A DNA stretch of 34,130 nucleotides from Muribaculaceae bacterium. Its GTDB lineage: Bacteria; Bacteroidota; Bacteroidia; Bacteroidales; Muribaculaceae. Below are positions 28,125 to 34,130 of this stretch, in pieces. The stretch lies in assembly GCA_017619935.1 (NCBI GenBank), contig JAFZRJ010000033.1, positions 1 through 34,130 of the forward strand. The letters are read 5' to 3'. The notes under the pieces are model-generated. The model did no database searches. It worked only from the letters and a program-made list of their open reading frames with translations, and was not told where the DNA came from. The first letter of the stretch is position 1. Every line of letters starts with the position of its first letter. Position numbers and translations under genes: made by a program.

Positions 28125-28243
28125 AATGCAAAAGTTGTTTGACGGCTTTTGTAATTTGTAGTTCCAACACATTTTGCCACATTAAAGAAGATCGCGATAC
28201 TCTTCAATTTTTACTAGAAATGCCGAGATAAGCTTTCACACTA

Positions 28244-28378
28244 ATGGCGGGCCTCAACCGCAAGGTGTTCAGTAATGAGCCGGAGGATTACAAAGGTGTG
28301 AAGCCCTCAAATCCTTACTATTTCGGAGTTTCATCACATCCCTTTGATGTGGCATTCCCATCACAAGAGCTGGCGTGA
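28244..28378 (+). CDS. Possible 44-residue protein, or remnant
   Basis: The frame from ATG 28244 encodes 44 residues (begins MAGLNRKVFSNEPEDYKG, ends FPSQELA) and stops inside the left arm region of a strong terminator. It has a rich, non-repetitive composition (NPYYFGVSSHPFD) that looks like real protein and not chance translation. I do not recognise it. It has no signal peptide or membrane segment. It may be a small protein, or the 3' end of a decayed larger gene; upstream codons in the same frame hit a stop (TAA) within seven codons. No clear ribosome binding site, as is common in this phylum. Confidence 0.4.
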   Translation: MAGLNRKVFSNEPEDYKGVKPSNPYYFGVSSHPFDVAFPSQELA

Positions 28379-31394: not shown

Positions 31395-33263
31395 ATGGAA
31401 TCGCGTGAACTGTCTGAATCGATGAACCCTGTCGAGAAGGATTTGAACCTGAACGAAGAACCCGTTGCCGAAGCTGCGGGTGCCGTTGCTGAGAATGAAA
31501 ACATTAGTGATGCTAATGAAGGTGTTGAACAAGTTGAAACTCCCGCAAAGCAAGAACCGGTGAAGTATGCCGATTTGTCTAAGTCCGAATTGGTTGCCAA
31601 GTTGGAAGAGATGCTTAAGGAAGACATCGGTGCTATTAAAGACGATGTGCCTCTTCTCAAGGCCGCTTTCTATGCTATTCGTAAAGATGAAATAGCTAAG
31701 GAGAAGGCCGAATTCTTAGAGAAAGGCAACGAGGAGGCTGCTTTTGTGGCAAAAGATGACGCCGATGAGATTCGATTGAAAGAAATTCTTGCCGAGCTCA
31801 GAGACAAGCGGGCTGAATTTAACGCAGCACTGGAAACTGAAAAGCAACAGAATCTGGAAAAAAAGCGTGAGATCATTCAACAGATTTGTGAAATAACCAG
31901 CGATCCCGATAATATTAATCGGCAATATAATAAGGTGCAGCAGCTCCAACAGGAGTTCAAGGCTATAGGACCTGTTCCTGCTACCGACGACACCGATGTG
32001 TGGAAATCCTATCAGCAGGCGATGGAGAAGTTCTATGATTTGCTGAAGATTAACAAGGAACTCCGCGACTATGATTTTAAGAAGAACCTTGAGATCAAGC
32101 AGCAGTTATGTCTTGATGCTGAATCGCTCGATGATGAAAAAGATGTGATTGTAGCTTTCAAGAAATTGCAGGATCTGCACAATACTTGGCGCGAAACGGG
32201 CCCGGTGGCCAAAGAATTGCGTGAGGACTTGTGGGTGCGCTTCAAGAATGCTTCGGCTGTCGTCAACAAGAAGTATCAGGCTTTCTTTGAGGAACGCAAG
32301 GCACGTGAACAGGAAGCTGCCGAAACTAAGAATGCGTTGTGCGCTGAATTGGAGTCCATCGTTTCGGGTGAATTTAAGACCAATGCAGCATGGGACGAGG
32401 CAACGAAGAAGATTATTGAGTTGCAACAGAAGTGGAAAGAGGCCGGTTTTGCTTCAAGGAAGTTGAACAATGAGCTCTTTGCTCGTTTCCGTAAAATGTG
32501 TGATGAGTTCTTTGCCAACAAGTTGGCTTACTATAAGGGCATCCGTGAGACCATGGCCACTAATCTGGCCAAGAAGATTGAGTTGTGCGAGAAGGCCGAG
32601 GCGCTTAAAGATTCAACCGACTGGAAGGCTACTTCCGACGCTCTGATTGCGTTGCAGAAAGAGTGGAAAACAATAGGTCCCGTCAATAAACGCCAGAGCG
32701 ACCAGGTGTGGAATCGCTTCATCTCTGCCTGTGACTATTTCTTCGAGCAGCGCAAGCAGAAGAGTGTCAATGTTCATGCGGTGGAACACGAAAACCTGAA
32801 GGCTAAAAAGGCGGTGGTTGCCCAATTGAAAGAACTGCTTAATGCCGAGAATAACGAAGAAACAGTTCAGGCTGTGCGTGAACAGATGGCGAAATGGCAA
32901 GAGATTGGCCATGTTCCTTACAAGGAAAAAGACAAGATTTATAAAGAATATCGTGAGGCCATCGATTTGGCATACGAGAAGTTCGATTTGAAGGGTTCTA
33001 AGGCCCATCTTGCTAATTTCGAAAGCAGCCTGAGCAAGTTGGATGATAATGACAAGGTCTATCATGAGCGTGAACGCCTGGTTAGGGCTTATGAGCAGAA
33101 GTGCAATGAATTGAAGACCTATGAAAACAACTTGGGCTTCTTTAATGCACAGTCCAAGACGGGAAGTTCTATCGTTAAGGAGATGGAGCGCAAGATTTCC
33201 CGTTTGAAAGAAGACATTGCCATGCTGGAGCAGAAAATCAAATTGGTGGATGATAAAATTTGA
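31395..33263 (+). CDS. DUF349 repeat protein
   Basis: This 622-residue, highly charged, mostly helical protein has an acidic Ala/Glu-rich start (residues 1-55) and then about five DUF349 repeats. They are marked by VWKSYQQAMEKFYD, LWVRFKNASAVVNKKYQAFF, LFARFRKMCDEFFANKL, VWNRFISACDYFFEQR and IYKEYREAIDLAYEKFD, each preceded by a KWKEAG/EWKTIGPV-type turn. The C-terminus (SSIVKEMERKISRLKEDIAM) is a coiled coil. The family is common in Bacteroidota and its function is not established. It is cytoplasmic, followed by a strong terminator. Confidence 0.9.
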   Translation: MESRELSESMNPVEKDLNLNEEPVAEAAGAVAENENISDANEGVEQVETPAKQEPVKYADLSKSELVAKLEEMLKEDIGAIKDDVPLLKAAFYAIRKDEIAKEKAEFLEKGNEEAAFVAKDDADEIRLKEILAELRDKRAEFNAALETEKQQNLEKKREIIQQICEITSDPDNINRQYNKVQQLQQEFKAIGPVPATDDTDVWKSYQQAMEKFYDLLKINKELRDYDFKKNLEIKQQLCLDAESLDDEKDVIVAFKKLQDLHNTWRETGPVAKELREDLWVRFKNASAVVNKKYQAFFEERKAREQEAAETKNALCAELESIVSGEFKTNAAWDEATKKIIELQQKWKEAGFASRKLNNELFARFRKMCDEFFANKLAYYKGIRETMATNLAKKIELCEKAEALKDSTDWKATSDALIALQKEWKTIGPVNKRQSDQVWNRFISACDYFFEQRKQKSVNVHAVEHENLKAKKAVVAQLKELLNAENNEETVQAVREQMAKWQEIGHVPYKEKDKIYKEYREAIDLAYEKFDLKGSKAHLANFESSLSKLDDNDKVYHERERLVRAYEQKCNELKTYENNLGFFNAQSKTGSSIVKEMERKISRLKEDIAMLEQKIKLVDDKI

Positions 33264-33290
33264 TAATTGATTATCTTCTGTGAAGTATAG

Positions 33291-33318
33291 AACTGGCGGC
33301 TCAAAGCTGCCAGTTTTT
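33291..33318 (+). terminator. Terminator of the DUF349 gene
   Basis: ACTGGCGGC pairs with GCTGCCAGT (one G-U) over loop TCAAA, followed by a run of five T. It lies 28 bases after the stop codon. Confidence 0.88.
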
Positions 33319-33328
33319 GTATATGTGC

Positions 33329-33361
33329 AAAAAAAAATCCTCGACATCAACGTCGGGGATT
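33329..33361 (-). terminator. Terminator of a minus-strand small gene
   Basis: AATCCTCGAC (33336-33345) pairs with GTCGGGGATT (33352-33361) with one G-U over a 6-base loop. On the minus strand the stem is followed by nine T, so it is oriented for minus-strand transcription. It begins three bases after the stop codon of the 36-codon frame. Confidence 0.85.
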
Positions 33362-33363
33362 GC

Positions 33364-33474
33364 TTAACTAATTAACCTTCTAATACCATTAACATAAACC
33401 TTAACAAATTCTTGAATTAGCGCAGTTGTCATCACGACAACATGGAAATTCATTTTCTTAAAAACTAATACCAT
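33364..33474 (-). CDS. Small protein of 29-36 residues with own promoter and terminator
   Basis: The frame from ATG 33474 encodes 36 residues; a second ATG at 33453 would give 29 (begins MNFHVVVMTTALIQEF) and is preceded by AAGAAA. The sequence is a hydrophobic stretch HVVVMTTALIQEFVKVYV followed by a basic end NGIRRLIS, which could be a membrane-active or amphipathic helix. A consensus promoter lies just upstream and a strong terminator follows the stop codon by two bases, so the unit is exactly framed by transcription signals. An inverted repeat GTTGTC/GACAAC (33425-33441) lies inside. I cannot name the family; a non-coding RNA is the alternative. Confidence 0.55.
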   Translation of the reverse strand: MVLVFKKMNFHVVVMTTALIQEFVKVYVNGIRRLIS

Positions 33475-33484
33475 GAAAACCAAT

Positions 33485-33518
33485 GCAAATTTATATTAGA
33501 ATTTATACTGGAATCAAA
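33485..33518 (-). promoter_or_regulatory. Predicted promoter of the minus-strand small gene
   Basis: TTTG (33518-33515), 21 bases, TAAATTTGC (33493-33485) on the minus strand. Transcription should begin near 33478, giving an RNA of about 150 bases. Between 33519 and 33881 I see no gene; the stretch is AT-rich with only weak inverted repeats. Confidence 0.65.
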
Positions 33519-33881
33519 TATTTTCTCTATAAAAACTGAATAATTAACTTTTTTTAATCTAAATGGGGCATTTTTGCATAAATCTGTCGTATTTTGTGCG
33601 CTAAAATATTGAATTTGAAACCGTCCAATGTATAAATTTGGCATATTATTTTATGGGGGCGGATGTATATATGTAAGTCTATATATTAAATAGGTGTGCG
33701 TACCATGTGCTGACACTTCGACCCGAACCATCCGTATGGCCTCTTGCAGTCCTTAAGTCTCTTTTTCGCCTTAGAGCACCACCTTCTCTTTGTTTCACAT
33801 TATTTAACCTTAAGCATAGCGCTGTGCAACAGTATCTTGCGCTTTTCGTGCTGATTTTTTTGTAAAAAAACGATTTTTGTG

Positions 33882-33914
33882 TTTGGTGGATCCGTGCGTT
33901 TGTTGTAATTTTGC
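33882..33914 (+). promoter_or_regulatory. Strong predicted promoter at the right edge
   Basis: TTTG (33882-33885), 20 bases, TAATTTTGC (33906-33914): a full consensus match. It drives transcription towards the right edge into the inverted-repeat-rich segment. Confidence 0.75.
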
Positions 33915-33919
33915 ACCGC

Positions 33920-34130
33920 TTTTCGCCCCAAATCTGGGGCGTCGGGCCTATGAGAGATCATTGAAATGATGCAGCAGGACAAGTAGTACTGAACAAGAAC
34001 AAGGGACATAAGATGTCCCTGTCGATTCTGAAGACTACCGATAGACGGACACCCTCGAGGCCCGGATCTCACGCGCCACGTTACCTTCATCAATCTTTGG
34101 AAAAAGAAAAGACAGATAACTGACAACGAA
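33920..34130 (+). ncRNA. Candidate structured RNA or long mRNA leader (runs off the edge)
   Basis: Exact inverted repeats cluster here: CGCCCC/GGGGCG (33924-33929/33936-33941), ATCAT/ATGAT over TGAA (33957-33970), AGGGACAT/ATGTCCCT over AAG (34002-34020), and a long-range pair CGGGCCT/AGGCCCG (33943-33949/34058-34064). TGAGA (33951-33955) can pair with TCTCA (34067-34071), crossing the long-range pair as a pseudoknot. TGTCC (34014-34018) can instead pair with GGACA (34047-34051), which would compete with the AGGGACAT hairpin. Frames inside are short (6 codons at 33966; 36 codons from 34013). I could not match it to tmRNA, SRP RNA, RNase P or a known riboswitch by eye. Confidence 0.5.

Follow-up and report, generated by a model that had tools for sequence, protein, structure and literature searches.

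The minus strand of positions 33329-33482 of the window, by which we mean the whole analysed stretch of 34,130 nucleotides, almost certainly encodes a non-coding small RNA (sRNA) of ~155 nt, whose 5' end was placed from the -7 promoter box and whose 3' end from a run of T. The best overall explanation of the locus, with a probability of roughly 0.75, is a two-seed, longer FopS-like sRNA. FopS and GibS are already known, and we judge the two-seed long form to be a new variant; among the literature matches listed, a scope that left out most subscription papers, no paper dealt with the two-seed form or with FopS in Muribaculaceae. The window corresponds to the whole of contig C2 (34130 bases), which belongs to a genome of 1.86 Mb and 66% completeness.

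Read directly on the minus strand, with coordinates checked by script, the promoter consists of a -33 element TTTG (33515-33518) and a -7 element TAAATTTG (33486-33493; TAnnTTTG, sigma-ABfr type) separated by a 21-nt spacer, so that the window copy has the canonical sigma-ABfr promoter expected of a FopS gene. It is followed by a frame of 36 codons plus stop (33364-33474, ATG at 33474), or of 29 codons from a second ATG at 33453, and by an intrinsic terminator with nine pairs and nine T (33329-33361), which was recognized by a terminator scan, by its fold (-10.6 kcal/mol, z -3.07 against shuffles) and by covariation of its stem. The terminator scan of 32600-34130 returned three terminators, that of the sRNA included, where 1.2 were expected; a generic sigma-70 scan of the same region did not list the sRNA promoter. 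An earlier note on this DNA had described this promoter, frame and nine-T terminator at 33518-33329 on the strand opposite a DUF349 gene, and all of its coordinates were borne out: the neighbour is indeed a DUF349 gene (PF03993, E 2.3e-92; 31395-33263, plus strand). A plus-strand hairpin with a T run, read from the sequence at ~33291-33319, follows that gene, and the DUF349 unit and the sRNA unit meet tail to tail. Conservation among relatives shows that the unit is not due to chance. The ATG of the frame likely lies only ~6-8 nt downstream of the start site expected from the -7 box, and the frame looks exactly framed because the RNA itself is short. Elsewhere in the window, a 6S-type RNA (Bacteroidales-1, RF01693) was found at 28175-28360 on the plus strand (111.5 bits). 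A G+C-rich, structured-looking stretch at 33900-34130, the contig end, matched nothing in Rfam at the gathering cut-off and holds a terminator-like hairpin at 34020-34002 (minus strand); it may be the leader of a gene lying past the end of the contig.

The earlier note had offered three readings of the transcript, namely a small membrane-associated peptide encoded by the frame of 36 or 29 codons, a dual-function RNA and a non-coding RNA. The window copy does have an open frame with hydrophobic residues, and 6 of 89 distinct copies are open for at least 35 codons, a share to be compared with 7.5% after shuffling of the linkers. At least 29 codons are open in 13 of the 89 (15%), against 20.9% expected from shuffled linkers, with kinship between copies uncorrected in both counts; in a smaller set of 30 copies, with the window counted and L032, the 31st, left out, the frame reached 29 codons in six and 35 codons in three. 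Linker lengths are spread over the three reading phases as 32/25/32 in the 89 copies, in the same-genome paralogue the frame is closed by a stop after 13 codons, and there is nearly no leader ahead of the ATG. These frame statistics, over 30 and 89 copies, led us to reject a peptide gene, and the dual-function reading fails on them too; we consider translation of either kind very improbable. The non-coding option alone survives: in relatives the frame drifts while the seeds, two covarying stems and the -7 box are conserved, which is the pattern that the earlier note had said would speak against a peptide. The neat succession of promoter, frame and terminator resembled a peptide gene, and comparison alone showed otherwise, which calls for caution with similar loci. 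Even less credible is a role in cis, as the leader or attenuator of a gene lying downstream. A hairpin followed by a terminator is the architecture of such elements, and a 245-codon minus-strand frame with a TTG start (32613-33350) begins within the terminator; that frame, however, is antisense to the DUF349 gene and matched no Pfam family, and the neighbours downstream of other copies occur on either strand.

Four zones were apparent in the alignment of 30 copies: a 5' seed, a variable linker, an almost unchanged block and the terminator. Seed 1 (UUUUCAUGGUAUUAGUUUUUAAG, 33457-33479, minus strand), delimited by the Rfam FopS alignment, resembles the R1' seed of FopS and is nearly invariant among the aligned copies. 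It is predicted to be single-stranded, the region 33482-33454 on its own folding at 0 kcal/mol, so that the sRNA has the conserved R1 seed in a 5' end of predicted single-stranded character that marks FopS. The FopS seed UUUUCAUGGUAUUAG is present in the window RNA, and seed 1 includes CAUGGUAUUAG, the complement of CUAAUACCAUG. The linker, 50-121 nt long over 89 copies, holds a short hairpin with a GUGA-type loop (GUUGUC-GUGAU-GACAAC, 33425-33441, minus strand), which was named by hand and is supported by covariation over 83 rows. Downstream lies an almost invariant block of 43 nt (UUAAGGUUUAUGUUAAUGGUAUUAGAAGGUUAAUUAGUUAAGC, 33362-33404, minus strand), recognized in the alignment of copies, which contains the FopS-type core AUGGUAUUAGA..AGGUUAAU and holds a FopS-like seed 2 (UUAAUGGUAUUAGAAGGUUAAUUAG, 33392-33368), placed by a weak FopS alignment of 33327-33399 (24.4 bits). 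The block is unchanged in L120, L122, L125, L128 and L092, in which the terminator sequence differs or the linker is longer. In two of these, L122 and L092, matched over 219 and 218 nt, the linker is far longer and both seeds are intact. In alignment A2, the loci were chosen by an exact 33-mer, so that the lack of change within it follows from the selection; one of the 84 rows is a weak match (L079, 33.7 bits) that is probably just a terminator. A stem predicted inside the seed-2 block is not claimed, all of its pairs being invariant and its energy equal to that of shuffles (z 0.21).

The fold of the whole unit was no better than that of shuffled sequences (z -0.73), and the structural claim therefore rests on two local stems, those of the linker hairpin and the terminator. 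Over 30 copies, 91.5% of the cells of these stems were paired, against 26-61% when the partner was slid, and 6 of 15 pairs changed on both sides, against 3.2 in shuffles; further pair types showed no excess in this set (13 against 13.7). Over 83 distinct rows, 90.6% of cells were paired, against 29.9-50.3% with the partner slid. Both-side changes then affected 11 of the 15 pairs, against 8.5 in shuffles (6 of 500 shuffles as high), and 128 cells, against 41.7 (0 of 500 as high), in an alignment that was fitted to the model and whose cells count sequences, not events. The four inner pairs of the linker hairpin were formed in nearly all 83 rows, with both-side changes in 28, 3, 12 and 6 rows, and the two outer pairs were often unpaired (31 and 54 of the 83 rows); the terminator stem showed both-side changes in five of its nine pairs. 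On alignment A1, whose copies were selected by similarity to the window, RNAalifold missed the linker hairpin.

The window copy matched our model R1 over 33330-33483 with 165.6 bits, and a second copy lies in the same genome (C25:37452-37615, 87% over 164 nt), making the sRNA paralogous and multi-copy as FopS is. Every one of the 101 genus genomes had relatives, the 48 of good quality included, with one to eight matches per genome, some of which span the 3' part alone; these numbers are lower bounds, the best eight candidates having been scored in the genus and the best seven in the family and order. At least 118 stretches of named genomes contain an exact 33-mer from the 3' part, and the long-form model matches all 118 loci (80/80 and 38/38), a few of which are interrupted at an end or by N. 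Their titles mostly name metagenome-assembled genomes of Muribaculaceae, Prevotellaceae, Porphyromonadaceae or Bacteroidales, many from the rumen; one says Clostridium and one just 'bacterium'. Dropping copies with an incomplete 5' part or upstream region, or with an identical core, left 89 of 118 core matches (88 for the palindrome described below), and the 89-copy frame and promoter counts, the palindrome and synteny counts and the 83-row covariation drew on 80 of the 118 loci. In the family, 370 of 397 genomes (30 genera) were matched by the model at E 0.001. Among the matches listed, a list to which seven non-matching genomes do not belong, those at E 1e-11 or better came from the window's genus and from genera g21, g23, g27 and g28; no listed match from any other genus was better than 5.7e-6, and matches there are probably single FopS seeds. 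In the order, the window's own genome alone, out of 393, was matched at E 1e-7; both scans used strict filters.

Many copies have neighbouring genes in common across species, the largest clusters comprising 17, 15, 13, 12 and 12 of 99 distinct copies. None of the 110 other loci searched, with flanks of 1.5 kb in many, had a DUF349 neighbour, and the position of the window copy beside DUF349 may be lineage-specific. Tandem arrays with a spacing of ~344 nt were seen twice, with three copies in L302 (G043:C57) and two in L303 (G040:C28). No match was found in the phage and plasmid records searched. On three contigs labelled viral (L278, L279 and L280), seed 1, nearly complete in L280 and altered in the other two, runs straight into seed 2 without a linker. 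FopS seeds also lie on 14 contigs labelled viral (L281-L294), five of which are identical around the seed; the seed of L282 starts 7 nt past the 3' end of a tRNA-Arg gene, and in L284 a tRNA-Leu follows the seed. A putative phage FopS linked to a tRNA would merit attention.

The -7 box is conserved with the RNA. Of 89 distinct copies, 88 have TAnnTTTG within 22 nt upstream of the seed, 86 of them at a distance of 14 or 15 nt, and just 24 have TTG near -33. Over the -33 region, 36 of 88 copies, for example L002 and L005, carry an operator-like palindrome such as TATGTTGTATAACATA (TATGTT-N4-AACATA), which was first seen and then tested on the same, related copies; the background is 15 occurrences in 400 kb of a relative, both strands counted. 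The window copy lacks the palindrome and has TTTG there instead. A similar motif was noticed by eye in 4 of the 21 short FopS promoters listed.

How the sRNA acts can be proposed from its kin. FopS-10 of Bacteroides thetaiotaomicron is described as blocking the translation start of susC with its 5' seed (PMC11697453), and we lean slightly towards start-codon antisense repression by the window sRNA. It would be transcribed by the housekeeping sigma factor and act in trans as an antisense RNA: seed 1, which contains CAUGGUAUUAG, would block initiation by masking the start codons of target mRNAs together with bases of their leaders, and seed 2 would add a further contact, be it with that mRNA or with a different one. 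Seed 1, seed 2 and the seed of a short FopS on contig C15 of the window's genome showed no excess of complementarity over dinucleotide-shuffled seeds at 301 translation starts, namely 277 genes from 400 kb of one relative and 24 susC genes of three genomes, where starts were set by a simple rule, some of them wrongly, and where the seeds came from the window's genome and most genes from a relative's. Duplex energies were compared with 20 shuffles, and gapless pairing with 30 shuffles at starts and 15 inside genes; the sole gapless-pairing count above every shuffle was a control inside genes (seed 1, score of at least 12: 7 against at most 6). The complement of seed 2 (23-mer, up to three mismatches) occurs at 19 sites in eight genomes, all of them within matches of the long-form sRNA. 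Since starts show no excess and the seed-2 sites all lie in sRNAs, the proposed mechanism rests on family resemblance. Long complementarity to seed 1 was found at four sites in the window's own genome, three of them in sRNAs; the fourth (C21) has three mismatches, lies near the start of a long frame and may be due to chance.

In B. thetaiotaomicron, FopS is reported to be antagonized by RbpB, an RRM protein (PMC11697453). A search for RRM_1 proteins was negative in all 101 genomes of the window's genus (0 of the 48 of good quality), where a diverged RRM below the cut-off may exist, and positive in 257 of 393 genomes of the order; none appeared in the six rows listed from the window's own family, and a Bacteroides genome, the control for this search, was matched. 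The sRNA family seems to live without RbpB, and the window sRNA would work without it because no RRM protein was found in the genus. The near-total invariance of seed 2 exceeds what pairing with several targets would require, and the 43-nt block may bind a protein instead, be it a chaperone replacing RbpB or another RNA-binding protein, seed 1 alone pairing with targets. The persistence of the block while linker and terminator vary, the distribution of RRM_1 and the failure to find a seed-2 target agree with this alternative, for which the protein search covered RRM_1; descent from a seed, however, explains the block too, a FopS-type core lying within it, and we regard protein binding as unlikely. 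Far less probable still is a mobile repeat that lacks any regulatory role and carries its promoter and terminator along as it spreads. Multiple matches per genome, tandem copies and related sequences on viral contigs would suit such a repeat, whereas the neighbours that many copies have in common across species point to vertical inheritance, the seeds are conserved far better than the linker, and the covariation points to selection on the RNA.

Within the preferred reading of a two-seed FopS-like sRNA, we put forward tentatively, as a possibility that falls short of even odds, that the RNA is a bivalent antisense regulator. A start-codon seed (CAUGGUAUUAG) and a seed frozen in the 43-nt block (UUAAUGGUAUUAGAAGGUUAAUUAG) would be joined by a freely varying hairpin linker, and such RNAs may run a paralogous regulon without RbpB and partly under a common operator. 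From the linkerless forms on contigs labelled viral, it would seem that both seeds can function as a single unit and be carried by phages. In Bacteroidota, in-depth work exists for just a few trans-acting sRNAs, FopS among them, and the published model of FopS gives control by RbpB a central place; a long FopS relative in every genus genome searched, where no RRM was found, offers a natural test of FopS seeds without RbpB. The almost invariant seed 2 points to a strongly constrained partner.

GibS (RF04182) is similar to the window sRNA in length (142-position model) and in its order of 5' seed, hairpin, stretch and terminator, and it aligns end to end, with 20.4 bits against a gathering cut-off of 115. 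The seeds R1 and R2 of GibS are both described as lying in the 5' portion (PMC7366714), whereas seed 2 of the window sRNA lies in the 3' half (33392-33368), and no second GGUAUUAG seed was found in the GibS consensus, of which all but 18 positions were covered. The GibS promoter is described as non-canonical (PMC11697453).

Kinship with FopS (RF04319) is very probable. The Rfam FopS model matches each half of the window sRNA separately, the 5' half at 33411-33483 with 31.5 bits and the 3' half with the 24.4 bits given above; these are the two best Rfam matches on the minus strand, and both lie below the gathering cut-off of 56 bits. With FopS and GibS scores below their cut-offs, the sRNA is a variant and not a filed Rfam member. 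The 5' half alone of another copy (G009:C11) reached 53.3 bits with the FopS model, and the window's own genome has a near-canonical short FopS (C15:12506-12573) at 53.2 bits, just under the cut-off. FopS matches at E 1e-4 or better occur in 92 of the 101 genus genomes, some of those below the cut-off being 5' halves of the long form, and 46 of the 101 have matches above it; long-form paralogues occur beside short FopS genes. The two have in common the 5' seed UUUUCAUGGUAUUAG, the Bacteroides -7 promoter and a hairpin with a GUGA-type loop, and FopS is paralogous and intergenic like the window sRNA, 9 of the 14 FopS of B. thetaiotaomicron being described as intergenic (PMC11697453). FopS of that species is bound and antagonized by RbpB, whereas the window's genus has no RRM protein that our search found. 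FopS is 65-70 nt long and consists of a seed and a terminator hairpin; the window sRNA, at ~155 nt, has a second FopS-like seed and, unlike FopS, no T run after hairpin 1 in the window copy, the T run following the second hairpin alone. Some other copies have a U-rich stretch after hairpin 1, so that a short form is possible there. The FopS consensus starts with GUGUUUUUCAUgGUAUUAGAUUUAAGGUUAAuAAA, and seed 2 is AUGGUAUUAGAAGGUUAAUUAG, the same minus about four bases. Since the FopS model matches each half and seed 2 resembles the FopS consensus, the long form has the look of a fusion of two FopS units.
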